Of a DNA stretch of 41,957 nt, positions 4,856-25,571 are shown one piece after another; position 1 is the first letter of the stretch; the number at the start of each line of letters is the position of its first letter. This stretch comes from Fibrobacterota bacterium (GTDB lineage: Bacteria; Fibrobacterota; Chitinivibrionia; Chitinivibrionales; FEN-1185), in the NCBI GenBank assembly GCA_003165595.1, contig PLWQ01000003.1, positions 1 to 41,957 of the forward strand. Reading direction: 5' to 3'. A model generated the notes under the pieces. It ran no database searches. It was given only the letters and a program-made list of their open reading frames with translations, and was not told the DNA's origin. The position numbers and the translations under genes were made by a program.

Positions 4856-4906
4856 TGCCAGCGCAGAGATTCGAACTCCGGACAAGTGGATTATGATTCC
4901 ACTGCT
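4856..4906 (-). repeat. Left att repeat: displaced tRNA 3' fragment
   Basis: These 51 bp are identical to 25457-25507 and correspond to the tRNA from just 5' of the anticodon stem to the discriminator base. On the chromosome side, 4853-4855 add the terminal CCA on the minus strand, showing that the original tRNA gene encoded CCA. The integrase reading frame ends inside this repeat: its TAA stop at 4891-4893 comes from the anticodon loop. Confidence 0.95.
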
Positions 4907-6000
4907 GACAATTGTTTATCGCTATGATTGATAGCGTTTTGCATTGACTCACTACCTTCAAGTGTACCAATAAATGTACCATTTTCCTTGAAATCTATCG
5001 ACTTTGCCGCGTTCATTTCATTCCTGCCGAAGTAGACCTTCGACATATCCGTCGCATGGCCGGACACCTGCATGACTATATGCGGTGCATTGCCCTTTAA
5101 GAGAAGATCGGTATAGGCACCGCGTCTCTGGTCATGGAAGCGATAGTTCTCAATGCCTGCGGTCTTAAGGCATTTCATCCATGACTTGCGAAAGTTTCCT
5201 ATCGGAAGATACCGCGCTCCCTTTTGCCGATAAAACAACCATTCACTCTCTTTGGGTACGTTTCGCATGTAGTTGACAAGGCACTCAGGTACGGGCTTAA
5301 TGCAGGGCCGCTTCATCTTTGTTCTCTCTGCCGGTATGATTACCACGTTGTTGACCATATCGTAATCGGTCCTTTTCAACGTGGACAGTTCACCTCGACG
5401 GGAAGGAATAAGGAGACTGAAAAGCATTATCGGAAAAATATACGGTGCCTCTTTTCTTACCGCGTCGATCAACCGTAACTTTTCCGCATCATTCAGCATC
5501 CGATCACGCGGATGTGTAGAAAGTTTCTGGAAGTGCTGCAAAGGGTTCTTTTCGATCAGTCCGGCCCTTACCGCGCAATTAACCGCCACTTTTGCCCATG
5601 CCATGTATCGGTTTATTGTGGCGTTCGACAAGAAACGAGTAGTATGCTTCACTTTCGTTTTTCTTAGAAGCAAAAGGTATCTGTCGAACTTGTCCCGCAA
5701 TTCCGATAATTGCACGTTCCCCAGGTCACTCTTTAATTTTTCCAGATAGGTTTCGGAATGAGAATCAATGGTATTTCTGGCGAGGTAATAGTCGATGATG
5801 TGCTTGAAAGTAGTGTTGTATGAGAAAGAGCGTTGACCGTTTTTCGCCGCGGTCTGCATTTCTTCCTTTAATGCGTGGTATCGACGATCTGCATTTTTCC
5901 GGCACCCGGTGAAATTTTCCCGCTGCCGGTATTGCCTGCCGTCCTTAAATACCCTGGCATCAAGATAGAACTGGTCCGCGCCGATCTGCTTAATACTCAT
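4891..6000 (-). CDS. Tyrosine-type site-specific integrase
   Basis: This is the recombinase expected to insert and excise the element at the tRNA gene. The 369-residue protein has an N-terminal arm-binding-like region (about 1-55), a SAM-like core-binding region (about 60-160) and a catalytic domain. The catalytic set is visible: R201/R202 in PSRRGEL, K228 or K230, H289-x-x-R292 in HDQRR, H315 in SGHATD and the nucleophile Y323 in KVYFG. The gene is transcribed toward tilS. Its final codons and stop lie in the tRNA-derived att core, and the segment encoding GTFIGTL overlaps the left arm-type repeats. The ATG at 6000 encodes MSIKQIGADQFYL, a plausible start. Confidence 0.95.
   Translation of the reverse strand: MSIKQIGADQFYLDARVFKDGRQYRQRENFTGCRKNADRRYHALKEEMQTAAKNGQRSFSYNTTFKHIIDYYLARNTIDSHSETYLEKLKSDLGNVQLSELRDKFDRYLLLLRKTKVKHTTRFLSNATINRYMAWAKVAVNCAVRAGLIEKNPLQHFQKLSTHPRDRMLNDAEKLRLIDAVRKEAPYIFPIMLFSLLIPSRRGELSTLKRTDYDMVNNVVIIPAERTKMKRPCIKPVPECLVNYMRNVPKESEWLFYRQKGARYLPIGNFRKSWMKCLKTAGIENYRFHDQRRGAYTDLLLKGNAPHIVMQVSGHATDMSKVYFGRNEMNAAKSIDFKENGTFIGTLEGSESMQNAINHSDKQLSAVES
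4960..4981 (+). repeat. Left arm-type integrase repeats
   Basis: Two tandem units read AAGTGTACCAAT and AAATGTACCA, 54 bp inside the left att core. The same motif occurs in direct orientation at 25303-25352 inside the right end. In the circular form they would flank the core as lambda-like P and P' arm sites. They overlap the 3' end of the integrase gene. The binding role is an inference. Confidence 0.6.
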
Positions 6001-6075: not shown

Positions 6076-6366
6076 CTACCTTTTCGCCATAGGGGAAAGC
6101 AATTGCCCGGACAGAAGCCGTTTATTGATCTCTAGCGACGGATAACGCCAATGGTAGCCGCATTTAGTCGCCGGGATTCTGCGCTGCATTGTCCATTTTT
6201 GGACGGCTCCCAGGCTCACCGATAGCTTGCGGGCAACCTGGCCCGCTGTCAGATATTCCGGCTCCCCCGCTTCCCTTTCTTCCCGCCCTGCCGGTTCATC
6301 CGGGCAAGAGAAGGCTTCATTTGTCCCGTCGCCCTCATGCCGGGCCGTTGTGGTCGTTTCATTCAT
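6076..6366 (-). CDS. AlpA/Xis-like HTH DNA-binding protein
   Basis: The 96-residue protein has an acidic, probably disordered N-terminus (about 1-35) and then a MerR-like helix-turn-helix of the HTH_17 excisionase type: YLTAGQVARKLSVS, GAVQKW, RRIPATK and HWRYPS. Such proteins act as excision directionality factors or as AlpA-like activators of the integrase operon. It lies 75 bp upstream of the integrase on the same strand, as expected for an xis-int pair. An AAGGGG ribosome site precedes the ATG at 6366 by eight bases. Whether it bends att DNA, activates int, or both cannot be told from sequence. Confidence 0.85.
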   Translation of the reverse strand: MNETTTTARHEGDGTNEAFSCPDEPAGREEREAGEPEYLTAGQVARKLSVSLGAVQKWTMQRRIPATKCGYHWRYPSLEINKRLLSGQLLSPMAKR

Positions 6367-6684: not shown

Positions 6685-7410
6685 ATGCATTGGAACCAGA
6701 TTGTTGACAAGGTAGCGCCTTACATAGTAAAAATTGATACCCCTGTAGGAAGTGGCACAGGCTTCATAACTCTCTGCAATGAGAACAAGAACATTTATGG
6801 CATTGCGACGGCTGCTCATGTTGTGAATTATGCTGAGCAATGGCAACAACCAATTAGAATACATTTTCAGACTCTTGCTGAAACAATTTTGCTTAAAGAG
6901 AATGATCGTATTATCTTCATTGATTTAGCAAAGGACTCAGCTGTAATTATTTTTCAAAAGAATGACCTTAAGCTTCCAGAGGTGTTTGTACCACTTCTCC
7001 CAGTCAGTACCCGCCTCAGCATTGGAATTGAGGTTGGGTGGCTGGGTTTCCCTGCAATAGCCCCTTATACTCTTTGTTTCTTCTCCGGTAGTATTAGCGC
7101 TCCCCAAGAGATCAGAAATGCCTACCTGATCGATGGAGTAGCAATTAACGGCGTCAGCGGCGGTCCCGTTCTTTATTCGACAGAATCGGAGGGAGTTCAA
7201 ATTGTCGGTTCCATTACCGCGTATCAAGCAAATAGACAGTCTGGCGATACTCTTCCAGGACTCTCCATAGCTCAAGACGTTTCTCATTTTCACAAGATAG
7301 CCGCCCATTTCAAGTCGTTGGATGATGCGGAAAGGAAAAGGCAAGAGCTTGAACAAGAGAAGATTCAAAATGCTTCTCCATCGCCTTCACCTTCACCCGA
7401 AATACGCTAA
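6685..7410 (+). CDS. Trypsin-like serine protease, cytoplasmic
   Basis: The 241-residue protein has a chymotrypsin/HtrA-like protease fold. The catalytic residues are visible: H45 in TAAHVV, an aspartate at D84 (or D80) in the IDLAKDSAVI block, and S158 in NGVSGGPV. There is no signal peptide, transmembrane segment or PDZ domain, so it probably acts in the cytoplasm. The C-terminal end is charged and finishes with an SPSPSP tail. It is the only gene on the plus strand in the left half of the element, standing alone between xis and the SLOG operon. Small trypsin-like proteases recur in phage-defence loci as effectors, but this function is inferred from context. The ATG at 6685 follows AGGAA by about six bases. 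Confidence 0.85.
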   Translation: MHWNQIVDKVAPYIVKIDTPVGSGTGFITLCNENKNIYGIATAAHVVNYAEQWQQPIRIHFQTLAETILLKENDRIIFIDLAKDSAVIIFQKNDLKLPEVFVPLLPVSTRLSIGIEVGWLGFPAIAPYTLCFFSGSISAPQEIRNAYLIDGVAINGVSGGPVLYSTESEGVQIVGSITAYQANRQSGDTLPGLSIAQDVSHFHKIAAHFKSLDDAERKRQELEQEKIQNASPSPSPSPEIR

Positions 7411-7554: not shown

Positions 7555-8493
7555 TTAATGCGCCATAACGTAACACACGCCATGCGCGTGAATTTCTAGG
7601 GCCGTCAATGCCCGGACCGACGCTTGAAGTGTGTAGTTTGTTGTTGTCACGTCGTCAAGTACAAATACAACCTTTCCTATCCATTTCTCCACGCCCGGCA
7701 ATACGGCAATGTCTGGATGTGCGGCGAAACGTCCCCGGCTCTTCTTGTCCCAGGCCGCAAACATCGGCGCGTATTCAATGTTGAAATGTCCTGCGACCAA
7801 TTGACAAACAAAATCCATGACATGCGGTTTGTCCTGGTTCCGAATTGAGCGGGGAGCCATTGTTACGGCGTGAATAGTGCCAAAGCGGTTATTTGATTCA
7901 AAGAATTTGATGAAATATGGGGCCATGCGGTCGGCCAACGCTTCGGGATTGTTTTCCTTGTCTACGATCAGCGAAGCCCATTCGGTCGGTTCCATATACC
8001 TTTTCAAGCGCAAAGCATAGCTTCCAAGGGAAACGCGACGGATCGAAAACGGGCCTTTGCCGATCTGCTTTTCTTCCTGCTCGCCTTCTTCGTCTCCCGG
8101 TTCTTTGTCCGGCTTTTCCGCTTCTCCGGGGAAAAACAAAGACGGTCGGATAATCTTGACCGGCTTATTTGCTTTTACGGCACGCTTGATTGTGTCCCAA
8201 GTTCCGCCATGATCCTTTTCCGTGAAGGCGACAACCAAATCCGCATCATCAACGATCTTCTGATTTCGGTCATAATAGCGTTGCGTGTACTCGTGACGTT
8301 CCTTGCACCCTTCAAGGTTAGGAAGACACTCCACGACGTTCAGGCCGTTCTTACGGGCTGTTTCCGCCGCCGCAGTATCAACGCCCTTGGCACCGCCGCT
8401 GATGACTGTAATGCCTTGTGGAAGGTCTCGGACAAAGTATTCGACAAGTTTTAGCTGCAAAAACTCCCGACTTCCTACAACCGCCACTTTCAT
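7555..8493 (-). CDS. SLOG domain fused to phosphoribosyltransferase-like domain
   Basis: The N-terminal 115 residues match a YspA/DprA-type SLOG Rossmann domain: MKVAVVGSREF, ISGGAKGVDTAAAETAR, RNQKIVDDADLVVAF and the HGGTWDTIK segment. After a charged linker (about 120-145), the C-terminal part resembles a ComF-like type I phosphoribosyltransferase, with a PRPP-binding loop VLDDVTTTNYTL near residue 280. SLOG domains bind or process nucleotide derivatives, and PRTases transfer or hydrolyse phosphoribosyl groups, so a nucleotide-metabolising or signalling role is likely. It is the last gene of a minus-strand group with 8511-9467 and 9464-9889. A GGCGG precedes the ATG at 8493. The precise substrate is unknown. 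Confidence 0.75.
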   Translation of the reverse strand: MKVAVVGSREFLQLKLVEYFVRDLPQGITVISGGAKGVDTAAAETARKNGLNVVECLPNLEGCKERHEYTQRYYDRNQKIVDDADLVVAFTEKDHGGTWDTIKRAVKANKPVKIIRPSLFFPGEAEKPDKEPGDEEGEQEEKQIGKGPFSIRRVSLGSYALRLKRYMEPTEWASLIVDKENNPEALADRMAPYFIKFFESNNRFGTIHAVTMAPRSIRNQDKPHVMDFVCQLVAGHFNIEYAPMFAAWDKKSRGRFAAHPDIAVLPGVEKWIGKVVFVLDDVTTTNYTLQASVRALTALEIHAHGVCYVMAH

Positions 8494-8510
8494 AAGAACC
8501 GCCTTGTTGT

Positions 8511-9467
8511 TTATTCAACCACTATATGAATAGAGCCAGGTTCCTCTTGGTTAGCCTGGTTAGCCTTGATTTCTTCCCTTGCAAGTTTCCAAAGAAAGTC
8601 GCTTGCTTCCTCATGTTTACCCATTCCATCAAGAATTTCCACGATTGCCTTGTCCTTGGCATCCTTCGCCCACTTATCCGCAATAGCAATAATTGATTTC
8701 TGGTCGAAACGATTTTTAGTTCCTTCAATATCAAGGGCAAATCGATTTAGAAATCCTGCCGTATCTTTGGTTCCGTTCTTATCCTCAACGGTCTTGATTT
8801 TGGCTTGCAATTTTTTCAGGTATTCATTGAATGTCACGTCCGCATCTTCGATCATAATTCTAGTTTCCGAAAGCCTGTTTTCCACGTCACGAAAAATGAA
8901 AGGATGTCCGTCTAAGTATTTATCCTGAACTATTCTTACCACAGCGTCGAATAGATAAAAGTCGATAATCAATTCAAACGTCTTAGGCATCCAGTCTTCA
9001 AGCATTGACGGAAACCCAAGATCGTAGGTCTGTTCGGCAAGGTCATTGCCCTTTATCGTGTTTGCCATTGCCACTATATCCTGCAAAATTAGGGCGTTCA
9101 TAATTGACAATTGAAGAGAAGCCTTCAGCTTCAAGATTTCGGACTTGTGTTTCATTTTTTCATTGCTTTGATTTATTAATAACCTAAAAGCTTGATATTC
9201 TCCACGCAGTTTCCAGGCAATTCGATATTGCGCTCGTATGTCGTCCGGTTTGTGTCCCGGATGCTGTTCTTCCGCCTGCTTGTTCAGCATAAAAAACGGT
9301 TTTCCGAATGGCGTTTCTTCAGGACTCGAATAATTCAAGAAGGAATAATGGAACTCGTCTTCGGACGGATATTTTCGAAGCTCATCTGCAAGCCTTATGG
9401 CCCATTCCTTTGGGGTGAGCCTTATTTCCAAATTGTCGATGCGCTTCAATATTTGATTGGTGGTCAT
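8511..9467 (-). CDS. Unrecognised 318-residue protein in the SLOG operon
   Basis: I do not recognise this family. The protein is soluble, highly charged and predicted mostly helical, with no signal peptide or membrane segment. Helical, possibly coiled-coil stretches are apparent around residues 100-145 and 195-235. It overlaps the upstream 141-residue gene by four bases (ATGA) and ends 17 bp before the SLOG-PRTase gene, so the three genes are probably co-transcribed and translationally coupled. An AGGAA lies about seven bases before the ATG at 9467. It could be a partner of the SLOG protein or part of the element's replication or packaging machinery. Confidence 0.7.
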   Translation of the reverse strand: MTTNQILKRIDNLEIRLTPKEWAIRLADELRKYPSEDEFHYSFLNYSSPEETPFGKPFFMLNKQAEEQHPGHKPDDIRAQYRIAWKLRGEYQAFRLLINQSNEKMKHKSEILKLKASLQLSIMNALILQDIVAMANTIKGNDLAEQTYDLGFPSMLEDWMPKTFELIIDFYLFDAVVRIVQDKYLDGHPFIFRDVENRLSETRIMIEDADVTFNEYLKKLQAKIKTVEDKNGTKDTAGFLNRFALDIEGTKNRFDQKSIIAIADKWAKDAKDKAIVEILDGMGKHEEASDFLWKLAREEIKANQANQEEPGSIHIVVE

Positions 9468-9889
9468 ACGTCAATTCCTGTCATGTCCAGTGATGTTGAA
9501 GGTCTGTTTGTTTTTACGGCGGCTTCGATTGCTTCAATGCGTTTCTCAATGTCGCTTTGTTCAACGGCTTTGATAAGCACGCTTGCAAGGTATCCGAGGG
9601 TATTGGCGACACGTGGGTCGATTTGGCCCTTCCTGACTTGGTTAATGGTATCCGATAACAGGGGAACGGTGTCATGACAGTTTTCGATCTTCACGTCCGG
9701 CGTGTCCGCGTCAAGCGTCTTCATGTGGTTGTGTCTCCCGCCCAGGGATTGCGCTTCCCGCCTTCGTTCCGCTTTCTCCGGGTCATGGAAAAAACAGTAT
9801 TCCGATCCCGGAAGCGCGACTGCCTGACAATCCGATCCATCTGGCTTTTGGGCCTTACATGGGGTTTTATCGGTTCGCTGTTTTTCCAT
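9464..9889 (-). CDS. Small Cys/His-rich protein of mobile elements
   Basis: The 141-residue protein starts with a probable zinc-binding segment: CKAQKPDGSDC, then an alanine/leucine stretch, then YCFFHDP. A basic region and helical C-terminal part follow. This C-x8-9-C, C-x2-H pattern is common in short proteins of phages, plasmids and islands, some encoded near terminase or replication genes. The function is not established. It overlaps the 318-residue gene by four bases and is the first gene of the group ending in SLOG-PRTase. The iteron cluster at 9995-10073 lies directly upstream. No strong ribosome site precedes the ATG at 9889. Confidence 0.7.
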   Translation of the reverse strand: MEKQRTDKTPCKAQKPDGSDCQAVALPGSEYCFFHDPEKAERRREAQSLGGRHNHMKTLDADTPDVKIENCHDTVPLLSDTINQVRKGQIDPRVANTLGYLASVLIKAVEQSDIEKRIEAIEAAVKTNRPSTSLDMTGIDV

Positions 9890-10107: not shown

Positions 10108-11955
10108 CTAAGCGACGTGATAAACAGTGGCATTCTTGTTCCCTTTCGAGGTGGTCAGTTTGCGGGCAATTACCAACCGTTCAAGAGCATCAACAGTCCT
10201 GTTTCGGCCAAGTTGCCCAGCCACCGCAGCCCGTACTGCGCTTTGTGTTGCGCTTCCGTTCAATCCTTGCACGGTTGTAAAAACAAGATCATCATCACTG
10301 CCGGTGTTGGCTCCTGGCCTACCTGGCTTCTTTAGCGGCACACTGTCAAGCATCGGGTCAGCCGTATGTATGGGGTATCCCCATTGCAGAGATAAGGGGT
10401 CAGGTGTCTTAAATTCCCGAAGTGAAAATTCCATCCGGTAAGCATCATCGGATTCAAGGGCCGAAAGGGTGCATACCGCATCTACGTCACGCATGGGCGC
10501 GCCCGAACCGGCAATCCTATCTATTGCTTCCTTTGACGCTGCTAAACCTTTGGCAAAGTGGGAAATTATTATCGTGGAAAAGCCGTTTCGTGAAAAATAC
10601 CGGTCCAATTCACCGTACAAATAGCCCATCGCCACAGTGTCATTTTCTGAAAAGTTCCTGATTTCTGAGGACCGCAAGAGCTTATACTGTGGGTCAAGAA
10701 TCACGGTTGAAATGGCATGCCCATCAATCGCAGCAACAATGGAGGGAAATAGCTCTTCAATGTTTTGACCATAGCCCCGCAAATGATGATAGGCGATATT
10801 GTCGGGCATCGGCCAGCGTAAAGCATCCGCGACTGCCTGGACACGATGCAAGTATGATCCTTCGTCAATCTCGAAATTTGCAACGTATACGTTCCCTTTT
10901 TTACAAGGGAAACCAAGCCAATCATGCCCGGACGCGATAGCCAAGGCAAGCCGTATTGCAAGGAATGATTTACAGGCCTTCGAGGGAGCGCCAATAAGCA
11001 TTTTGTGGGATTGCCGGAGAATGCCGCAGATGAGTTCGGGCTTCCGTTCGGGTATGCCATTTTTGATATAGTGCGCGCCCCATACTATTTCCGGTAGGCT
11101 GCATGCTTCTTCCTGTTCTTGAAAAGCAGTGGGCCTTTGATTGTCCGTCAAACCCCTTGCATAGCCGTCCCTTGCTGCTTCACTGGCTTCTCGTGGATCA
11201 AGGCCGCACAATTGCGCGCCGCATTCGAGTAATTTCCGGGAAACCTTTTCTTGAATTCGTTTTTGTCCCATTTCCCGCGCTGCCGCGTAAAGGGCATTAT
11301 GCCTGCTGCCCGGTTCAACGAATCCGAGAAGACAATCAAGCGTTGCATTCGTTAAACTCGCGGGGACTTTTTGAGGAAGGATTGCAACCGCGTTTTCCCA
11401 CATCCCGCTTATGAAGGTGTCTCCTCCCGTCTCCGGGTTTGGATCGTTAGGAAGCCAAAACTGTGTGAGCTTTTCAGTCTTTGGAAAAAGCTCGATACGG
11501 TCTCTTCTGTTGAAGCCCCATGAGCGGATTATTCCCAAGAATTCTAAAACGTCCATCGGGCCGGGTAAGAGGAAAATTGCCCGTATTCCTCGACCGCTCT
11601 TGCTCTTGAATAAAACCGGTTCCGTTTGAAAAAAGCGCGCCGTTTTCGGCTGCAAATCAACGTTTGGTTTTTGTCCTTCATGGGCGTCAAAATCCAAGGC
11701 AAAATATGATACCTTTCCGGCTTGATGCGGCACAATACCAGGGCGAACTGGATGCGCAATTGTAAACTGTTTATCGTATTTGTTTCGGGTCACAAAGGAA
11801 ACGCTCGGCAATGTGCCGTGTTTCCAGCATTCAATGGCCTTTTGGCATTCCCCTTTTTTGTAGAGCCAACCGAAAACCAAATCGGCGTTTTGAAGGCAGA
11901 CTTTATCATCTTCCGACCAAGGAAGAAGTTTTTCGGCAAGCTGTAAACGGTCCAT
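10108..11955 (-). CDS. Primase/RepA-like helicase replication protein
   Basis: The roughly 615-residue protein appears to combine an N-terminal primase-polymerase-like region (FALDFDAHEG near residue 85, KSGRGIRAIF near 120) with an AAA_25/RepA-like hexameric helicase domain and a C-terminal winged-helix-like end. The Walker A segment near residues 322-330 reads GAPSKACKS, with cysteine where glycine is canonical; RepA-like relatives tolerate variation here. A Walker B-like TVILDPQYK follows. The ATG at 11955 lies just after the stop of the small HTH gene (TAGATATG) with AGGA six bases upstream; the ATG at 11970 is the alternative. It probably initiates autonomous replication of the excised element. 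Confidence 0.8.
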   Translation of the reverse strand: MDRLQLAEKLLPWSEDDKVCLQNADLVFGWLYKKGECQKAIECWKHGTLPSVSFVTRNKYDKQFTIAHPVRPGIVPHQAGKVSYFALDFDAHEGQKPNVDLQPKTARFFQTEPVLFKSKSGRGIRAIFLLPGPMDVLEFLGIIRSWGFNRRDRIELFPKTEKLTQFWLPNDPNPETGGDTFISGMWENAVAILPQKVPASLTNATLDCLLGFVEPGSRHNALYAAAREMGQKRIQEKVSRKLLECGAQLCGLDPREASEAARDGYARGLTDNQRPTAFQEQEEACSLPEIVWGAHYIKNGIPERKPELICGILRQSHKMLIGAPSKACKSFLAIRLALAIASGHDWLGFPCKKGNVYVANFEIDEGSYLHRVQAVADALRWPMPDNIAYHHLRGYGQNIEELFPSIVAAIDGHAISTVILDPQYKLLRSSEIRNFSENDTVAMGYLYGELDRYFSRNGFSTIIISHFAKGLAASKEAIDRIAGSGAPMRDVDAVCTLSALESDDAYRMEFSLREFKTPDPLSLQWGYPIHTADPMLDSVPLKKPGRPGANTGSDDDLVFTTVQGLNGSATQSAVRAAVAGQLGRNRTVDALERLVIARKLTTSKGNKNATVYHVA

Positions 11956-11957
11956 AT

Positions 11958-12176
11958 CTAGTCCTGGCATCCTACAATAGCCGTTAATTTTGAGGCTTCC
12001 GCATTGCTCATTGCTTTTTCAAGCTGGCGTCTTTCCTCACTTGTTAATACAATAAAACCATTCAGCTTTGAAGACGCCACGCCCGGCGCAACGCCTATGG
12101 CGTTTCCAATCTCTCGGTTAGTCCAATTCAAGCGGCGTTTACGTTCCAGAAGGTCCAGTTGACGTTGGTAAACCAT
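11958..12176 (-). CDS. Small HTH DNA-binding protein
   Basis: The roughly 72-residue protein has a Cro/C1-like helix-turn-helix appearance: LNWTNREIGNAIGVAPGVASSKLNG, followed by a helical tail. The ATG at 12176 (MVYQRQ) is preceded by GGAGG at five bases, much better than upstream ATGs at 12188 and 12194. Its stop nearly abuts the primase start, so the two form an operon. The 10-bp periodic repeats at 12266-12300 lie about 90 bp upstream of its start, in the probable promoter. An autoregulator or a replication accessory factor are the likely roles. Confidence 0.7.
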   Translation of the reverse strand: MVYQRQLDLLERKRRLNWTNREIGNAIGVAPGVASSKLNGFIVLTSEERRQLEKAMSNAEASKLTAIVGCQD

Positions 12177-12312: not shown

Positions 12313-14574
12313 CTATTTCCTTTTCAGTTTATCCCATACTTTTTTCAGGTTGCTTTGATTACCATTGGAAAAGCTTGCGGCATCCTTTTGGCTCCAACCG
12401 CCCAAGCTTGCTACCTCATAGAAAAGTATTCGATATATCTCCGTTTTTTCAACTTGGTTTGACGAACACCAACCAAAGAATGTCTCCCATGAATCTGATG
12501 TTCTTTTTGATGCCGTTTGGCTGTTTGTTATTTCCGAATAAGTAATTTGTATCTTGTAAGGTAGCTTCGAACAGGATGGGTACTTCTTCTTGAAATTGTT
12601 GCGCCAAATGCTTTCTTCGGCTGCCTTCAGTCCCGGCGAATTATCCACAGCGGATTCTGTTGCTGCTTTCTGATTGGCTATTTGTTGCGCTTGTATTTCC
12701 ATGCGAACGCTTTCCATTTTTAAACGATCTATCCAAATTCCCGCTCTGTCTTTGTCGTCTCTGTTCATTGTCGAATAACATGACAGTATTGTTTCTCCGG
12801 CCATTTCGGAAAGAGATTTTCTATCAGATAAAACCTTGGCTTCTTGGGGTAGCACTTTCCTATTGTAAATAATATTCTTTCTCCCTGCCAGATATGTGAA
12901 CACCTCAAAGCCATCCTTCCCAGGTTCTCCAAGATAATAAACGCATCCTGTAGGAAATCCTCTCAAAAGGATTTCGTAATCTTCCTTTTTAGGAAGGAGA
13001 ACATCCGCCAGATTTTCAAGACCAGCAAATAGGGCAAGGTGGCTGCCGGTCAGAATTCCCTCAACAAGCCCCCTCAATCCGATATGAAAACATTGCTTTG
13101 TTTCCTCTGTATCATCAAGTTTTTCAAGAAACCTGTCAAGGTAGTGGCAAAGTGAATATTTCTTGCGTTCGTAATCTTGAAGTTCAATGCCATCCGTGTA
13201 TTGTCCAGGTTGATAGACTGAGCCGTTTATCACACGGTTTCTTCGGAAGGCATCAAGGTCTTTGGCAAGCTCCATTAGCGCCCTACCGTCATTGGTGTTC
13301 AATTCAGTTGTGTTGAGAACGTCAAGCAGTTTGTTCCAACTTCTTTCTTGCTCTTTACAGGCTTCTTGATAACCTTGCGCATAAGTTACGTGCTTGTCTT
13401 TGATTTCTATAAGCGATCTTCTATTGTTCCACGCTTCGTGCCACGCTTCATAGGGCTTTTTCAATCTCTGAAAGTCTGCTTTGACAAAGGCCGCCGCCAT
13501 GCCGTTGCCGCCCTCCGCTCTCGGCTCCGGCATGCCGTCCTGTTTCTGTGCATTCATGGCACCTAGCATTTCGGTTAATTGCATCCGCGCCTCGATGTCC
13601 AGCCTTCTCAGTCTTTCGTCCGCCACTTCCGCCGCGTTGGGAATACCCTGTTTCTCATATAATTCAATCAACATTTTTCTTTCAATCCGTTCCCGCTCTT
13701 TGAAGAAATCGTCTGTCTTTATCTTATCGGTATAGAATTGTATAAATGCTTCTTCGTCCTGCCACTCTGTGGCAACGCCATACCTTGACTCACGGACTAC
13801 CCTTTTCGCGTTTTCTTCTACTAATCGTTGCGTTTCAGCATGGTACTTCAGCAGGTCTTTTCTCAGGTCGTCTTCTGAGATTTCATGCCCAAAATCCGGA
13901 GGTTCTGTTTTCACAGAATTGTTGTCCGTTGTCGTCTTAGCCGTTGGAAACAATTCCGCGTTCCTTAGGTATTCATGAGCATTCTTGAATGTTTGCGGCT
14001 CAATTTTATTTTGCAATATCTGTGCAAATGGATTCTCGAAACCCAAAGCCCCGATTGTCTGCGTTTCCCTGTCTTGAATCCCGCCGAACGCGCCAGCAAG
14101 AATATCCTTGGGGCGCCGAACATCGAATAGTCTCCAATTGGATGGCGCTAGTATTCTGCCCTTATCGTCAAGTTCAGGATAGAAGATTACGTCTTGAATA
14201 GATTGTTCACCGTTGCGATAGAACCAGTGGCATTGCGCAAAAATGCCTTCAAATCCAAGGAAGTGATTGAATGGAATACTGAGCCTTTGAAAGGCCTTGA
14301 ATATTCGTTCAAGACCCCTTACTGTCAATTGCAAATTAGGCTGCACAATTCCGCCGCGAATTAATTTGAGGCTATTGAACCATTCCAAGTTCAAACCTCG
14401 AACCTCTACTACGTCGCAATCTTCTTGAGTGCATGCCAAGAGAGGGTTGAAACAGTTTTCTTTGCGCAATTGGCGGGTGTAAATACTGCGGTTTCTTTTA
14501 AGGAAATCACGGTCGATATCGGTAGGAATTACCAGCTCAACAGGACTCTTCTTTTGTTCCACTTCATTACTCAT
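12313..14574 (-). CDS. Unrecognised 753-residue protein
   Basis: I do not recognise a family. The protein has no signal peptide or transmembrane segment. The N-terminal 200 residues look globular and rich in aromatics. The middle (about 230-420) is strongly charged and helical, with a probable coiled coil. A more globular part follows (about 450-600), and the C-terminal end is basic. The gene ends 136 bp upstream of the small HTH gene and starts 108 bp after the FRG gene, on the same strand. It may belong either to the replication half or the defence half of the element. The ATG at 14574 has no clear ribosome site. Confidence 0.7.
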   Translation of the reverse strand: MSNEVEQKKSPVELVIPTDIDRDFLKRNRSIYTRQLRKENCFNPLLACTQEDCDVVEVRGLNLEWFNSLKLIRGGIVQPNLQLTVRGLERIFKAFQRLSIPFNHFLGFEGIFAQCHWFYRNGEQSIQDVIFYPELDDKGRILAPSNWRLFDVRRPKDILAGAFGGIQDRETQTIGALGFENPFAQILQNKIEPQTFKNAHEYLRNAELFPTAKTTTDNNSVKTEPPDFGHEISEDDLRKDLLKYHAETQRLVEENAKRVVRESRYGVATEWQDEEAFIQFYTDKIKTDDFFKERERIERKMLIELYEKQGIPNAAEVADERLRRLDIEARMQLTEMLGAMNAQKQDGMPEPRAEGGNGMAAAFVKADFQRLKKPYEAWHEAWNNRRSLIEIKDKHVTYAQGYQEACKEQERSWNKLLDVLNTTELNTNDGRALMELAKDLDAFRRNRVINGSVYQPGQYTDGIELQDYERKKYSLCHYLDRFLEKLDDTEETKQCFHIGLRGLVEGILTGSHLALFAGLENLADVLLPKKEDYEILLRGFPTGCVYYLGEPGKDGFEVFTYLAGRKNIIYNRKVLPQEAKVLSDRKSLSEMAGETILSCYSTMNRDDKDRAGIWIDRLKMESVRMEIQAQQIANQKAATESAVDNSPGLKAAEESIWRNNFKKKYPSCSKLPYKIQITYSEITNSQTASKRTSDSWETFFGWCSSNQVEKTEIYRILFYEVASLGGWSQKDAASFSNGNQSNLKKVWDKLKRK

Positions 14575-14682: not shown

Positions 14683-15489
14683 CTAAACCCCTCTAGAGAC
14701 ATTGCCAAACCTGTAGGCATGAAAGAAGTCCATGGCAGCCTTTTCTTTGGTCCCGAATAACTTGTACCCAGAGATATTCATTAACATTAAATCAGTATAC
14801 ACTTCGGAAGTCCAATCAGGATGAATTGCATATGTAACGACGGACATATGAGATTTTCCAAAAGAATCCAACAAATGGCTCTGTTGCCTCAAGACTCTTT
14901 CGTGAATGTAAGGTGACACCTTTCTATTCCCAACTATTCTTTTCACCAGACGTGCCATAGCTAGGTTTTTGTGGTTGACGGCAGCTATCCCAGGAAATTT
15001 ACGTGGGTCATCGGTTTGAAGAGGTTTGTTATCGTAGAAAAGCGCAAAATATGCGGCAATATAGGGTGAAAGAGTAAAATCGATGAAATGAGTATTGATT
15101 TCATGATGTTGCATTTGCCAAATCAAGTGTATTGCCCGTTGATAAGCCTCATGTGGAGTTTTTGTCCCTTCAGGCAGTTCCTGATCTGCACTCTCGTCTT
15201 TGAGATGCCGACAATAGGTTCCTAGACATTCTTCGTTTAATGAGTGATTGCCATTGTCAAAAAGACCAGTCTCAACCATTTGCCTGTAGGCATTTACGTA
15301 GTACGTAGCCAAATCACCCATTTTTATTTGAACGAAATTTCTTTCCAAGGAGGAATTAAGTTCCCAGGAGATATTCTTGTGACCGCGGAACAGAAACCCG
15401 TTCAGATGATCTTGCAGCAGACGAGCCTTTAGTTCGGTCCACGAACCAAGATGCAGCAGTTCAATACTTGAACTTGAGGAAATGATCAT
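14683..15489 (-). CDS. FRG-domain protein
   Basis: The 268-residue protein carries an FRG domain: FLFRGHKN with the name-giving F34-R35-G36, then a characteristic QHHEINTHFIDFTLSPYIAAYFA segment around residues 125-150, and a C-terminal ISGYKLFGTKEKAAMDF part. FRG domains often occur in defence islands and toxin-like proteins; their biochemical activity is not firmly defined. The gene starts 41 bp after the Mod methyltransferase stop on the same strand, so it is likely part of the res-mod transcript. It may be an accessory effector or an independent defence gene that hitchhikes. The ATG at 15489 was used; no strong ribosome site is seen. Confidence 0.82.
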   Translation of the reverse strand: MIISSSSSIELLHLGSWTELKARLLQDHLNGFLFRGHKNISWELNSSLERNFVQIKMGDLATYYVNAYRQMVETGLFDNGNHSLNEECLGTYCRHLKDESADQELPEGTKTPHEAYQRAIHLIWQMQHHEINTHFIDFTLSPYIAAYFALFYDNKPLQTDDPRKFPGIAAVNHKNLAMARLVKRIVGNRKVSPYIHERVLRQQSHLLDSFGKSHMSVVTYAIHPDWTSEVYTDLMLMNISGYKLFGTKEKAAMDFFHAYRFGNVSRGV

Positions 15490-15530: not shown

Positions 15531-18146
15531 TCACATCGCAAACACCTTCAAAACTTCATCCCCGTAATGGTTAATCACCTTCACAGCAATCTTCCCCGTC
15601 TCGGGCTTGTCAAAAGGACGGCTTTCTGTGCTGTATAGGCTTGACCAAGCCGCCTCGTCGATCTCGGCCCGAAGGGCGCGCTTGAGCTTATCATAGGGCT
15701 CTTCGGCACCGGTAAAATAGGCATGCCGGACAAAAAAGCTTTCGCCGTTATAATTGGTGTCAATGAACCAACAGGCAATGTCATCCGTAGAAGAAGACCG
15801 GACTTCGCCGGTTGTCGGGTCGTAAACGTCAAGCCCTTTTATGGTTGCGACGATCTGTCCGCCTTTTTGTTTCTTTATCTCGACATCGGGCTCACCAAAG
15901 ACCATAAACAGATTGCCCGCGCCGGTCTTCTTGAGAAGTTCGTCACCCATTGCCAGGTCGGGATTCATGCGAGCAGCCAGGACAGTAAGTTTCCCGTAAC
16001 GTTTGGCCTCTTCGGATACGTGCGGATCAAAGGCAAAGCCGCACATGAGGAGAAGATCGTACCCGACACCCTGCACGGCTTCCTTTGCCGCTTCCTTGAC
16101 CTGCATCGGGCCGACTGTCCCCTGCTCTGGGCCTATGGATACCGCAACCCGCTTTGATTTCCCGGCTGCATCCGTGTATTCTCCGGTTGCGTGAATCCAG
16201 GTTCCGGCAAAAGGATTCAGGCTATCGAATTTCAACCGTTCGCTCTTCTTGGTGTTTTGGACGCCTGCCTTGCGAAGGTTTTCAAGGATCATGGAAGTAA
16301 AATCTTGGTGCTTTTGGGCTTCCTTTTCCGATACTGTGCCGTCCATGTTTTCGTCGGCAGTGGAAAGGACACGGTGAGGCGAAAGGCTTTCCACAGTGAG
16401 CGGGCCGGAAACGCGAACGGTCTTATTGTCTTCATACGGTTGGTCGAAAAGAGTTTCCGTGTCAGCGTGCCGGGAAATGGCCTCGTCAATCTGTTTTCGG
16501 GTTATGCCTGCCTTGATGTCCGGGTTATTGGCGATTGATTTCAAGGTGACGTGCGGCACTCTCTTGTAAACAAAGCCTTTTCGAATATCGTTGTCAGTCG
16601 GGTATGACGGCGGTATCTTCCCGGTGATTTCTGCTTCCTTCTTTATACCTTCGGGAGAATCGGCAAGGTAGTAAAACGGGAAGCGCGCCGCCATGAGGCG
16701 CGTTCGCGCGAGCGCCAGGGCAACGCGCGACGTGTCGCAGGTGATCCAGCGGCGGCCCCACTGCTCGGCGACATAGGCGGTTGAACCGCTTCCGCAAGTT
16801 GGATCAAGAACTAAATCGCCTGGATCGGTAGTCATTAAAAGACAGCGCTCGATAACTTGCGGAGAAGTTTGAACAACATACGTCTTTTCGTATGAGACGC
16901 CCACATCAGGCCATAGGTTAGTGATTTTTCTATAGGGGAAATCTTCGTGATATAGGCGATAACTAAGACTTTTTCCTTCTACCTGCACCCTACCCACGAA
17001 TGCAAGCTTGTCGAGCTTTTCCTTATTGACAACCCAAGAGCCACCGCTTGGTGGTGGATAATTTTTACCCTGAAATTTATAATCGAATGCTGTTTGTGGT
17101 GAAAAAGAAGGTGCAATTAAGGAGAAAAGACGAAAAAGTCGCGTACCTGACAATGATTGGATTCCATTGAACTCCGCAGGATCGAATTTTTTGATCGTTC
17201 CATCTGAATATTCGGCATACCTCCAATGCGCCGTAAGATCATCCATGTATTGATATAGTGGCCTGTACTTGACATGCTCAATGTCCTTTGCATAGAAAAG
17301 AATGTGGTCATGCATTGTTTCAAGCAATGCGGCACCAAGGGGAAGGCTTTTCTTGCGAAAGACAATATTGGCAACGAAGTTTTCGCTTCCAAACACTTCA
17401 TCAAGAAGGGATGCAACCAGATGGCTGTTTTCTGAATTTATTTGCACAAAAACGCTTCCTGTCTCCGTCAGCAATTCCCTAGCTGCAACCAGTCTGTCAC
17501 GTAGATATGCCAAATACGAATGTATCCCCAATTTCCATGTATCCCTGAACGCCCGTACCTGCTCCGGCTGCCTTGTCGCATCCTCAGCCTTCCCGTCCTT
17601 CACGTCCCTCTTTCTCGTGCTCACTTGCCAATTCGAGCCGAACTTTATTCCATACGGCGGGTCAAAATAAATCGTCTGCACCGACCCCTTGAGCCCTTCC
17701 TTTTCGGCCAAACTTGTCATCACAAGAAGCGAATCCCCAAGAATCATACGGTTTGACCAATGGCCCTCGTGCTTGTAAAAGTCTACGCGCTGGTCAAAAT
17801 CTGCCGGTAAGCCGTTGAAGTCTCCGAAAAGGTCTATTTGGTTGTCTGCCGGTTTCTCCATGCGTGGTAGAGAATCTATGATGGCTTGCGGATGAATTTT
17901 TTCCTGAATGTAGATGGGTACCACGGGAACGGCAAGGTCAGCCGCGTCCTGTTCGTCCTTACCTTTCCACACAAGCTGCGGATCAAGAGAAGGGTCGCGC
18001 GGGTAAAGCATGGCCTTGGGGGTGGCTTCGTCTTCGGCAACAAAGTCGCGTAGTTCCTCGGTGGGTATGTTCACTCGTCCATCTTTGTGCCGGATGGATT
18101 CAATCGCTACGCCTTCGGCAATTTTCTTTTCTTTGCTCTTGGGCAT
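15531..18146 (-). CDS. Type III-like DNA methyltransferase (Mod)
   Basis: This is the modification and sequence-recognition subunit expected to protect host DNA by adenine or cytosine amino-methylation. The order of motifs is that of a beta-class methyltransferase: DPPYGIKFGSNW (motif IV) first and DPTCGSGSTAYVAEQWGRRW (motif I) later. At about 871 residues it is longer than many type III Mod proteins, because of a C-terminal region of roughly 350 residues after the catalytic domain. The ATG at 18146 (MPKSKEK) has AAAGGTG upstream and overlaps no coding motif; the frame opens earlier, to 18254, inside res. It begins one base after the res stop, indicating tight coupling. Confidence 0.9.
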   Translation of the reverse strand: MPKSKEKKIAEGVAIESIRHKDGRVNIPTEELRDFVAEDEATPKAMLYPRDPSLDPQLVWKGKDEQDAADLAVPVVPIYIQEKIHPQAIIDSLPRMEKPADNQIDLFGDFNGLPADFDQRVDFYKHEGHWSNRMILGDSLLVMTSLAEKEGLKGSVQTIYFDPPYGIKFGSNWQVSTRKRDVKDGKAEDATRQPEQVRAFRDTWKLGIHSYLAYLRDRLVAARELLTETGSVFVQINSENSHLVASLLDEVFGSENFVANIVFRKKSLPLGAALLETMHDHILFYAKDIEHVKYRPLYQYMDDLTAHWRYAEYSDGTIKKFDPAEFNGIQSLSGTRLFRLFSLIAPSFSPQTAFDYKFQGKNYPPPSGGSWVVNKEKLDKLAFVGRVQVEGKSLSYRLYHEDFPYRKITNLWPDVGVSYEKTYVVQTSPQVIERCLLMTTDPGDLVLDPTCGSGSTAYVAEQWGRRWITCDTSRVALALARTRLMAARFPFYYLADSPEGIKKEAEITGKIPPSYPTDNDIRKGFVYKRVPHVTLKSIANNPDIKAGITRKQIDEAISRHADTETLFDQPYEDNKTVRVSGPLTVESLSPHRVLSTADENMDGTVSEKEAQKHQDFTSMILENLRKAGVQNTKKSERLKFDSLNPFAGTWIHATGEYTDAAGKSKRVAVSIGPEQGTVGPMQVKEAAKEAVQGVGYDLLLMCGFAFDPHVSEEAKRYGKLTVLAARMNPDLAMGDELLKKTGAGNLFMVFGEPDVEIKKQKGGQIVATIKGLDVYDPTTGEVRSSSTDDIACWFIDTNYNGESFFVRHAYFTGAEEPYDKLKRALRAEIDEAAWSSLYSTESRPFDKPETGKIAVKVINHYGDEVLKVFAM

Positions 18147-18147
18147 C

Positions 18148-21147
18148 TCACGCACCTTTTGTTTGTTTCGATTTCTCACGCACCCACCCTCGAATCTGGT
18201 TCGCCGCGTTCCACGGATCAAGAACCTCGATAATATCCCACCTGCCAAAGCCACCGTGATTATTGACCGCAGGAACCCATAGCGTTTGGGCCGTTGTAAC
18301 CTTGGCTGCTTTGTCTTTTCTCTTTTCCCCTGTCACTTCGATAATAAGTTGCAAAGGGTCGGCAGGGCCTTTTCCATCGTCTATACAGGCGATAAAATCA
18401 GGCTCATAGTTGCTTTCTTCACCATTCAGCGTATAGGGGATATTGAACCCAAGGCTTTTGTTGTTCTTGGCATATCGGATGACTTCGGGCATGTCTTCGA
18501 GCGTTTGGGAAAGTTTCTGCTCCCAGGAATCGGTGTCCGCGACAACATGCGAAACGTGGCATTTGTCTGCGCGCGTGGAAAAGGTCGGGCGTGTGGTGTC
18601 AAAATCAACGTAGCTGGTGGAGCCAAGCGTATCGTATGGCCGGAGAATCGGCTTCAAGGCGGGCGTATCCCCTGCGGATTGCACGATAGCCTTGTAGATT
18701 CGGTCTGCGGCATCATGAGCGAATTCGACAAGAAGAAGGAGTTGTGGGAATGTGTTGTCTTTGAGCGTGACGCACTCGTCAAGCCATCGTTTGGAAATAA
18801 CAAGTAGCTGTGGGAACAGCCAAGGCTTGTCGTTACCCTCATCATCACGGAAATATTTTTCAAGTGTCAATTTTGCGAGTAGAAACGCTACTTCGTTTGG
18901 TCGCCGCCTCTTGAGGTCTTCGAGTGTGTGAATGCTTGTTTCCCCCACTATCGGGGCATTTTCCGTTTTCGTCGGGATATCAGCCGTGGAAAGGGTAAGC
19001 TTTGAATCTTTTGTGAACGTCGCGGAAAGCCGTTCGCTCAACAAGTCGTAACGGTAGCCCATAAGGCGCGGAAACACTATTTCGGCGCTCTTACGGTTGT
19101 CCAATGCCCTAACCCGTGTCGGCTGCGGGCCTGGTTTTGGGTCTTTCGTGGAACCGCTACAGGGAATAAACGAGAATGGAACGCCATAGACTTCGGCATA
19201 TTCCGGCGAGAAAAAACCGTTTTCATCAGCCGCGTAGCTCATGCGACGAAGGGCGCGCCCGACAACCTGTTCACAAAGCAATTGCGTACCAAAGGCGCGC
19301 ACTCCCAGAACATGCGTGACCGTATTTGCATCCCACCCTTCGGTGAGCATAGACACGCTTACAACGCATTTTACGTGTTCTCCCAGCTTGCCCGCTTTTC
19401 CCACGGTATTCATCACCTCACGAAGCAAATCTTCGTCGGTGAGGCTGTCGGCATCACGTCCGGGAAATCGTATCCGGTATTCGGCCTTGAATTCCTCGAC
19501 TTCGTGGACGGCGATTTTCTTGAATTCGTCGCTCATGGCCTCGCCGGATTCCAATTGTGTGCTGTCAACCAGGATTGTATTGGGCCTTTGGAGCCAGCCG
19601 CCTTTCCCGTCGTCGTTTCGGAAAATTGGAAGTTGTCCGGCTTGGACAATGATTTTCTCTTTGATAGGTTTTTCCCAGCCAGCTACATAATCGTAAACCA
19701 GCTTCGAAACGTTGGTGTTATTGCAAACGACAATGAACACGGGCGGTGTAATTCCCTTGGCGCGGGCTTTGGTGTTTTTCTCCCAGAGCTTGTAATACTT
19801 TTCGTAGTTGCTGTAAAGGCTGTGTAGCGCTCCCTGAAGCTCGGCAGGAAGCTTCGGCTCTCCGCTGATCGAATCTGTCCTTCGGCCTTTCTTCGGCAAA
19901 TCCTCGCGTATCCGCAGCCATAAATCACGGTAGGTAGGCTGGTCGCCGGTCATCGAATCGTCACTCACCGGCACTCTTGGCACCTTGACTATGCCGGATT
20001 CGATGGCCTCGATCAATGAGAAATCGCTGATAACCCATGGGAAGAGTGTACCTTCAGGATTCCCGGAGCCTCGAAGGAAAAACGGCGTTGCCGACAAGTC
20101 GTAAACATTTTTCACCCCGATTTTGGCCTTCACAGACTCTATACCGTTTATCCAAACGCGGGCTTCCTCTTCCCGTTTCTGTGCTTCCTTGCGGTCATCA
20201 CCCTTCAATTCTTCGTCTACCGCATCAGGCTTTCGACGGTAGCAATGGTGGGCCTCGTCGTTGATAACGATAATGTTCTTTTTGTTCCCAAGTTCGCGGC
20301 ACACGCGCCGCACCATTTGATCCGGCGTTTCTGTAAATGCTCCTGCCGGGCCGCCGTCGGCCAAAATCTGCTTTGTAATCTTTCCCGCCGCGACCTTCTC
20401 CCGGAGCTGGAGCGCGTGAAAGTTCGTGATAATGATTTTGGCCTGACAGAGTTGTTCAATGGACTGAGCCGGAATAATATCGCGCTGCCGGTAATAATTC
20501 TGCGGATCGTTTGGAAGGAGAACGCGCAATCGGTCCCGAATGGTGATTCCTGGGGTGATGATAAGAAAAGTGTCCGAAAATCGGGCATCCTGCGGGTTTG
20601 CCAGCTTGTTTAAGGTGTTCCAGGCGATAGCCATTGCCATGACAACCGTTTTACCGGAGCCCGTGGCCATCTTGAACGCCATGCGCGGCAAGCCGGAATT
20701 CCAAACGTCATTTTCTTTTCTGATTGTGTTTTCAATCCAAGAATCGCCGAATTTCCGGGCCACTTCCGTTATGTAAATTACTGTTTCAAGGGCTTCTATT
20801 TGGCAAAAGAAAAGTTTCTTTTCTCTCTGCGGATCGTTCCAATAAGCAAGGAGGCGCGCCGTTGTTGGCGTAACCCCGCTATACCCACCCTTCCGCCAGG
20901 GCGAAATGCGGGACCGGATTTGATTTACAAGCTTGTTCTCCTCTATGCGGTCTTGCGTCCATTCCGTGTCGAATGACAACTGCTGCGGGTTTCTATTCCT
21001 TGGGCGCGCTATGGGGACGAAATACGAGCTTGGCCTGCGGCCATCCAGGGTTTCGTCGGTAATGCCGTCATTGGAGAACTTGAAATAGCGGTCAGGCTCC
21101 CGGAATGCGGAGCATATTACGGGGTTTTCAATGACTGTTTGGCTCAT
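18148..21147 (-). CDS. Type III-like restriction subunit (Res), DEAD/DEAH helicase-nuclease
   Basis: This is the helicase-nuclease partner of Mod. The roughly 999-residue protein has Walker A MATGSGKT near residues 160-167, a DEAH-type box in VINDEAHHCY, the DLSATPF motif and a C-terminal helicase part with GRALRR. The end contains a PD-(D/E)XK-like nuclease signature, NYEPDFIACI followed by LIIEVTGEKRKDK. The ATG at 21147 (MSQTVIENP) is preferred over a TTG at 21177. A C-terminal overlap with the start of mod indicates one transcript. Between this gene and the C39-like peptidase lies a short truncated R-M-like fragment in the same reading frame. Confidence 0.9.
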   Translation of the reverse strand: MSQTVIENPVICSAFREPDRYFKFSNDGITDETLDGRRPSSYFVPIARPRNRNPQQLSFDTEWTQDRIEENKLVNQIRSRISPWRKGGYSGVTPTTARLLAYWNDPQREKKLFFCQIEALETVIYITEVARKFGDSWIENTIRKENDVWNSGLPRMAFKMATGSGKTVVMAMAIAWNTLNKLANPQDARFSDTFLIITPGITIRDRLRVLLPNDPQNYYRQRDIIPAQSIEQLCQAKIIITNFHALQLREKVAAGKITKQILADGGPAGAFTETPDQMVRRVCRELGNKKNIIVINDEAHHCYRRKPDAVDEELKGDDRKEAQKREEEARVWINGIESVKAKIGVKNVYDLSATPFFLRGSGNPEGTLFPWVISDFSLIEAIESGIVKVPRVPVSDDSMTGDQPTYRDLWLRIREDLPKKGRRTDSISGEPKLPAELQGALHSLYSNYEKYYKLWEKNTKARAKGITPPVFIVVCNNTNVSKLVYDYVAGWEKPIKEKIIVQAGQLPIFRNDDGKGGWLQRPNTILVDSTQLESGEAMSDEFKKIAVHEVEEFKAEYRIRFPGRDADSLTDEDLLREVMNTVGKAGKLGEHVKCVVSVSMLTEGWDANTVTHVLGVRAFGTQLLCEQVVGRALRRMSYAADENGFFSPEYAEVYGVPFSFIPCSGSTKDPKPGPQPTRVRALDNRKSAEIVFPRLMGYRYDLLSERLSATFTKDSKLTLSTADIPTKTENAPIVGETSIHTLEDLKRRRPNEVAFLLAKLTLEKYFRDDEGNDKPWLFPQLLVISKRWLDECVTLKDNTFPQLLLLVEFAHDAADRIYKAIVQSAGDTPALKPILRPYDTLGSTSYVDFDTTRPTFSTRADKCHVSHVVADTDSWEQKLSQTLEDMPEVIRYAKNNKSLGFNIPYTLNGEESNYEPDFIACIDDGKGPADPLQLIIEVTGEKRKDKAAKVTTAQTLWVPAVNNHGGFGRWDIIEVLDPWNAANQIRGWVREKSKQTKGA

Positions 21148-21210
21148 AGGTAAAAAAATACGAAAGTGTTGGAGCAAAACAAAGAAACGTGCTTGGAAAA
21201 TTGGAACGGC

Positions 21211-25352: not shown

Positions 25353-25456
25353 AGGGTATTTGATACTATTTTGTAGAGAAGTGAGGCAATGCGGAGAGAA
25401 TAGAAAAGACCTTTTAAAACGCTGTTTTCATAGGGAGAAGTTGGAAGGGAGAAAAA

Positions 25457-25507
25457 TGCCAGCGCAGAGATTCGAACTCCGGACAAGTGGATTATGATTC
25501 CACTGCT
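25457..25507 (-). repeat. Right att repeat, within the intact tRNA
   Basis: These 51 bp are identical to 4856-4906 and form the anticodon arm through the discriminator base of the intact tRNA gene. The sequence beyond the 3' end is element DNA (T-rich), without CCA. Confidence 0.95.
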
Positions 25508-25530
25508 CTAACCGACTGAGCTACGCTGGC
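25457..25530 (-). tRNA. tRNA with CAU anticodon (Met or Ile2), integration site
   Basis: The 74-nt gene folds into a full cloverleaf: acceptor GCCAGCG/CGCTGGC, D arm GCTC/GAGC, anticodon stem GTGGA/TCCAC with loop ATCATAA giving anticodon CAU, T arm CGGAG/CTCTG with TTCGAAT, and discriminator A. C1 is not unpaired, so it is not an initiator. It is either elongator tRNA-Met or tRNA-Ile2, whose C34 is converted by TilS. The proximity of tilS before integration favours Ile2 slightly, but sequence alone does not settle it. The 3' end is not followed by CCA, whereas the displaced fragment at 4856 is. Confidence 0.95.
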
Positions 25531-25571
25531 ATTTTTTAAATCAGGATAATCCTGGTCGAAAAGCACACACA

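Follow-up and report, generated by a model that had tools for sequence, protein, structure and literature searches.

A SLOG–phosphoribosyltransferase fusion gene in integrative islands of Fibrobacterota and in phages, and its likeness to ShosTA

We studied a gene in a 41,957-nucleotide stretch of DNA (contig PLWQ01000003.1, hereafter the window) from a Fibrobacterota bacterium whose genome sequence totals 5.39 Mb in 42 contigs. The gene encodes a protein of 312 amino acids (aa) that joins a SLOG domain to a type I phosphoribosyltransferase (PRTase) domain (Table 1). Upstream of it on the same, minus strand lie open reading frames (ORFs) of 318 and 141 aa. The 141-aa and 318-aa frames overlap by ATGA at 9464-9467, and a gap of 17 bp (8494-8510) separates the 318-aa gene from the fusion, just as the first-pass annotation described. 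A promoter scan yielded nothing above chance. The fusion sits in a 20.6-kb island in a tRNA-Met gene (4856-25507), which is bounded by perfect 51-bp repeats and has an integrase and an excisionase gene at one end.

Table 1. Features of the fusion gene and of the island that carries it
Feature	Position	Strand	Basis
SLOG-PRTase fusion gene, 312 aa	7555..8493	-	ORF list, domain matches and fold matches
SLOG domain, residues 1-120, DprA/ShosA-like Rossmann fold	8134..8493	-	motifs VGSR, SGGAKGVD, GGTWDTIKRA; profiles and fold
Variable acidic linker, residues 121-156	8026..8133	-	alignment; pLDDT < 50 over 122-156
Type I PRTase domain, residues 157-312, ComF/ShosT-like	7558..8025	-	profiles and fold
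PRPP loop, residues 276-288, VFVLDDVTTTNYT	7630..7668	-	alignment, D280-D281 invariant
318-aa helical protein, island core gene, outside the fusion's conserved context	8511..9467	-	ORF; AlphaFold2 pLDDT 51
141-aa Cys/His protein of the island core, N-terminus weakly HGGxSTG-like	9464..9889	-	ORF, profiles
Tyrosine integrase of island	4891..6000	-	phrog_1 8.5e-35
Excisionase-like helix-turn-helix protein	6076..6366	-	phrog_66 1.5e-5
AAA_25 replication-type ATPase of island	10108..11970	-	PF13481 1.3e-18
Left attachment repeat, 51 bp, identical to 25457-25507	4856..4906	.	repeat comparison
Right attachment repeat, inside tRNA-Met gene (25456-25531)	25457..25507	.	repeat comparison and tRNA call

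Both domain calls, already made in the first-pass annotation, hold in profiles, homologues and fold matches. Residues 2-116 match the SLOG profiles DprA (PF02481, 3e-10), LDcluster4 (2e-7) and YAcAr (5e-7). The PADLOC models for ShosA (1.8e-11) and PsyrA (1.5e-9) also match the window protein, and that for ShosT matches weakly (0.02) at residues 270-298. The ShosA match covers model positions 117-172 of 303 only, and the SLOG half is about 120 aa long. For the PRTase half, the window protein alone gives a weak Pfam match (0.088), and the best solved sequence in a profile search is ComF (E 0.013). Nine homologues of the fusion were scanned in the same way. All nine match the ShosA and PsyrA models, eight match ShosT (best 1.2e-6), six match Pfam Pribosyltran (best 3.7e-4) and two match PsyrT.

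The phosphoribosyl pyrophosphate (PRPP) loop, VFVLDDVTTTNYT, is intact and lies close to the C-terminus. Its DDV and two threonine positions are kept in all copies; the loop ends in TTG in three of them (G055, L015 and L028) and in TTN or similar in the others. D280 and D281 of the loop and R218 are invariant in all aligned homologues. R218 comes after strand two in the PRTase half, a loop position read from the secondary structure of an AlphaFold2 model, and a conserved arginine is reported at the equivalent place in ComFC-like and mobile-element PRTases (PMC5512222).

The AlphaFold2 model was built on nine sequences and compared with known folds using VIA-align and Foldseek. It has a predicted local distance difference test score (pLDDT) of 80.1 and a predicted template modelling score of 0.66, with two well-predicted domains and a disordered linker (residues 122-156). 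According to VIA-align, the SLOG half resembles a molybdenum cofactor (Moco) carrier protein (Z 15.2), ShosA (8zva; Z 14.2, root-mean-square deviation (rmsd) 2.5, 122 aligned), DprA (3uqz; Z 14.1) and the SLOG domain of ThsA bound to 3'-cyclic ADP-ribose (3'cADPR; Z 10.6). The alignment with ShosA involves residues 131-290 of its 308. A structure search of the C-terminal half had been set beforehand as the test of the PRTase call, and it returned PRTase folds: Helicobacter pylori ComF (7p0h; Z 13.3, rmsd 2.7, 146 aligned, residues 154-312) and ShosT (8zvd; Z 11.5, rmsd 3.4, 155 aligned, residues 152-312). Foldseek also gave these ShosA, DprA, ComF and ShosT structures, but not the Moco carrier. 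Given the ComF and ShosT fold matches, the profile matches of the homologues, and the PRPP loop with its invariant D280, D281 and R218, the PRTase call stands.

Full-length homologues occur in three other genomes of the same phylum, namely G002 (77% identity, same order), G020 (60%) and G055 (49%), and in six IMG/VR viral contigs (L012-L016 and L028; about 48-67%). The SLOG-PRTase architecture is kept in 10/10 full-length homologues. Only 4 of the 168 genomes of the phylum have a full-length copy, and seven further genomes match the SLOG part only. Searches of GenBank phages and PLSDB plasmids for the full-length fusion returned SLOG-only matches, and the PRTase half alone had no match in phages. 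We also tried a scan of the phylum with the ShosT hidden Markov model as a census, but rejected it: nearly every genome was hit, as were 13 of 14 control genomes, presumably because the model picks up ordinary PRTases, which makes the scan uninformative. For the copies in the window and in G002, the pairwise dN/dS ratio is about 0.08; the fusion is under purifying selection. In a tree of the ten copies, the two island copies (window and G002) group together, next to the phage copy L012. The G+C content of the fusion tracks that of the surrounding DNA in most copies, with G055 as the chief outlier.

Phages are the main carriers of the fusion. Outside the two islands, its eight copies lie in phage-like DNA beside packaging genes. 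In G020 it is followed by genes for the small (TerS, phrog_83) and large (TerL, phrog_9) terminase subunits, and the same order is seen in L012 (TerS weak, 4e-5; TerL phrog_2) and L015 (TerS phrog_57 after a 3-bp gap; TerL phrog_15). The L015 genes form a plus-strand unit, with head and tail genes divergent. Other genes intervene before TerL in L028 (two small genes, then TerS), in L013 (DUF4942) and in L014 (a weakly RusA-like gene, then a weakly matching TerL). In L016 the fusion starts 28 bp past a portal gene, and in G055 it is two genes away from a P22-like portal gene. Two neighbours of these copies deserve mention in their own right. About 1 kb from the G055 copy, an ORF of 2576 aa (G055:C40; L022 10273-18001) has polyvalent-protein-like PHROG matches (ParB C-terminal domain). 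Past the L013 TerL, on the opposite strand, we noticed by eye EcoRI-methylase-like and DUF262-like genes (IMG/VR 3300037047_000137; L079 816-2995), a pair that could be a second defence cassette.

In all six contexts where TerL was identified, the fusion is on the same strand and 1.4-2.64 kb upstream of it, even though these TerLs fall in several families (PHROGs 9, 2, 15 and 38). Compared with random positions on the contigs at full length, and with zones picked after viewing the data, six same-strand upstream positions have a chance probability of about 2e-6 (0.0015 when the zone extends 4 kb to either side). A gene-rank test did not reach significance on truncated pieces of the contigs (Fisher p 0.13). 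Among six SLOG-only relatives in GenBank phages, two have a terminase nearby (MW202482 and a Ruminococcus phage), and four lack an annotated terminase within about 4 kb.

Phage MW202482, a podovirus, has the two modules unfused (MW202482.1 34878-36266; L068 4001-5389). Near its TerL and portal genes, a SLOG gene (41% identical to the SLOG half of the window protein) adjoins a convergent PRTase gene whose product is homologous to the C-terminal half of the fusion (hhalign E 2.7e-10). The fusion therefore corresponds to a two-gene pair. We found no relatives of this PRTase in GenBank phages or IMG/VR. Its N-terminus has an HGGxSTG-like Cys/His motif. A link from this motif to the 141-aa Cys/His protein of the window was considered and dropped, as a BLASTP comparison of the latter reached only E 0.24.

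The first-pass annotation treated the three window genes as one operon and functional unit, and this part of it fails. Our neighbourhood survey shows no co-occurrence of the set elsewhere. On G002:C10, homologues of the 141-aa (62%) and 318-aa (36%) proteins adjoin the excisionase and integrase genes (xis and int) without the fusion. On G002:C33, the fusion adjoins xis and int; different small genes lie upstream, and the other two are missing. It likewise lacks both of them in the eight phage-like contexts, and islands in G032 and G031, whose integrases are 67% and 58-59% identical, lack the fusion. Because of these contexts in G002, G031 and G032, we regard the 141-aa and 318-aa pair as element core, and the fusion as cargo inserted beside xis and int.

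No terminase or structural genes were identified among the genes of the window's island, which for this reason is satellite-like or akin to an integrative and mobilizable element. A search of the host genome for a helper prophage gave no match to TerL_ATPase or to the L012 TerL; other terminase types are possible. The island also has a type III restriction-modification (R-M) system at 15531-21177 (mod of 907 aa and res of 1009 aa, with ORFs that overlap by about 107 bp). Adjoining it, an FRG-domain protein (14683-15489) matches the PADLOC candidate PDC-S15 (7e-20). Between the fusion and xis, in the opposite orientation, is a trypsin-like protease gene (6685-7410, plus strand) that matches LmuA (9e-10) and RT-Protease in PADLOC and is absent at the equivalent place in the G002:C33 island. 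Two further proteins lack clear family matches: one of 753 aa (12313-14574) and one of 523 aa (21375-22946), the latter weakly C39-peptidase-like (0.002). Next to the island with the 58%-identical integrase, in G031:C5, type I CRISPR-Cas-like genes from an HD helicase to Cas1/Cas2-like were recognized by eye from the ORFs (L056 8095-15608).

We favour, at roughly even chances, the view that the fusion is a single-polypeptide relative of the anti-phage systems ShosTA and PsyrTA/RqlHI, with the SLOG domain restraining the PRTase in cis. The P2 hotspot near cos harbours a DprA and PRTase pair that makes E. coli resistant to T7 and lambda, and the antitoxins of shosTA, syrTA and rqlHI are homologous to DprA (PMC9122126). 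PMC12593503, citing Pu 2025, describes ShosT as a PRTase/pyrophosphatase that upsets purine metabolism and is countered by the DNA-binding ShosA. The toxicity of RqlH requires PRPP-site residues, and RqlI binds its PRTase domain (PMC4670107). By analogy, the DprA-like SLOG module would bind a nucleotide or DNA ligand, and the flexible linker would tether it to a PRTase of ComF/ShosT type, which would be the effector that arrests growth or kills. At rest, the SLOG half would hold the PRTase in check within the same chain, the cis counterpart of what DprA-like antitoxins achieve in trans. An infection signal, perhaps exposed DNA, a replication intermediate or a phage protein, would lift the restraint, and the freed PRTase might then disturb the PRPP and purine pool, halting infection. 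Phages, with the gene beside packaging genes, and integrative islands, with it beside xis and int, would carry the fusion to exclude competitors. This reading draws on the ShosA, PsyrA and ShosT matches of the homologues, the folds, the invariant D280, D281 and R218, and the split pair in MW202482; the type III R-M and FRG/PDC-S15 genes of the island also speak for it. The link to defence suggested in the first-pass annotation is plausible.

Several points weigh against a ShosTA-like device. An antitoxin and a toxin in one chain cannot act as a classic two-protein toxin-antitoxin pair. In sequence, only a short stretch resembles ShosT, and weakly so (E 0.02 for the window copy), and the PRTase domain of RqlH is by itself not toxic (PMC4670107). 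A same-strand position at the head of the packaging module makes late expression possible, which would fit poorly with a role in aborting infection of the phage's own host. Finally, the support is by homology and context, and it is from these that we infer function. The fusion is probably a compact, phage-carried ShosTA relative, for which we infer toxicity, cis restraint, a trigger and anti-phage activity.

The position of the gene also suggests an enzyme of the packaging stage, that is, a late terminase or head accessory that handles DNA ends or nucleotides, or one packaged and injected like the MuF-PRTase polyvalent proteins; the islands would then have acquired SLOG-PRTase from phages. The constant placement upstream of different TerLs, the SLOG-PRTase/TerS/TerL unit of L015 and the L016 and G055 copies by portal genes fit this idea, and both solo and fused PRTases are known in head-proximal polyvalent proteins of phages (PMC5512222). 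However, the two islands carry the fusion without an identified terminase or structural gene, packaging-proximal regions double as known cargo hotspots (PMC9122126), and our first count, on partial contig pieces, was the non-significant one. Moreover, the fusion is missing from almost all phages, so it is accessory. We consider a packaging-stage role rather unlikely. A more specific form, in which the terminase-linked protein of several unrelated phage types would, while DNA is packaged or delivered, link the sensing of nucleotides or DNA ends to PRTase catalysis, is unlikely too; satellite-like islands would then perhaps carry it to hinder or exploit the packaging of other phages.

Two readings place a small nucleotide at the centre. 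The SLOG half might bind ADP-ribose-type immune signals such as cADPR isomers and the PRTase might process the nucleotide or rebuild it, so that immunity of the host based on NAD is dampened. Most viral SLOG domains are of the YpsA-like type, and a role in countering cADPR signals has been proposed for them (PMC9503650), the 3'cADPR-bound ThsA domain is among the fold matches, and the YAcAr/cpYpsA Pfam models match 9/9 homologues. Nonetheless, ShosA and DprA outrank ThsA structurally (Z 14 versus 10.6-11) and the PRTase half resembles ComF and ShosT, which leaves counter-defence of this kind quite unlikely. Alternatively, the PRTase could make a nucleotide from PRPP and a base, to be sensed by the SLOG half. 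The PRPP loop and SLOG motifs are intact, and nucleotide-making PRTases have been proposed for Ter systems (PMC5512222). Yet the fusion has no separate effector gene as a regular companion, so that a signal would be made without a conserved target, and we regard this scheme as highly improbable. The first-pass annotation had likewise suggested a protein that "makes and senses" a nucleotide; nothing shows this, and what has been described as a precedent is a DprA-like antitoxin that keeps a PRTase toxin in check.

Little is understood of how a DprA-like protein restrains a PRTase toxin in ShosTA-type systems. In a natural fusion the stoichiometry is fixed, and a construct of a single gene would allow point mutations to dissect sensing, restraint and catalysis. 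Its repeated place by terminases of different families also raises the question of whether a DprA-PRTase protein acts at DNA packaging or rides a packaging-proximal defence hotspot. We found no description of a SLOG-PRTase fusion in the literature searched, which did not extend to the 2015 Burroughs SLOG survey, where one may be mentioned. The first-pass annotation knew of no defence system with this exact set; systems with both domains do exist (ShosTA, PsyrTA/RqlHI), but as two genes rather than one.

The fusion differs from each system to which it can be compared. It shares the SLOG Rossmann fold with Thoeris ThsA and viral YpsA-like SLOG proteins. However, ThsA has a SIR2 effector, whereas the fusion has a PRTase as effector half, no SIR2 match, and no SIR2, Macro or NADAR partner. 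The catalytic motif of LOG phosphoribohydrolases is PGGxGTxxE. At this place the fusion reads KDHGGTWDTI, without PGGxGT..E. With the polyvalent and MuF-associated phage PRTases (PMC5512222), it has in common a DD motif, a conserved loop arginine and a head-module neighbourhood, but it is a small two-domain SLOG protein, free of MuF and other polyvalent fusion partners. Among the closest folds for its two halves are the natural-competence proteins ComF(C) and DprA. While competence DprA is complete, the fusion has only the Rossmann core, in a fused form and in a mobile-element context, and its score against the dprA equivalog TIGR00732 (NCBIfam) is 22.4 bits, below the cut-off of 191. PsyrTA/RqlHI combines a DprA/SLOG module with a ComF-like PRTase, paired there and fused here; its toxin has a RecQ-like helicase, whereas no helicase domain was found in the 312 aa of the fusion. 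ShosTA (PDB 8zva-8zvd), with its DprA-like antitoxin ShosA and PRTase toxin ShosT, shares both domain types, their folds and the PRPP loop. Although it consists of two separate genes, as opposed to a single ORF that is fused in every full-length homologue, and ShosA has about 300 aa as against some 120 for the SLOG half, phages and satellites carry ShosTA, like the fusion, in a hotspot close to packaging genes.
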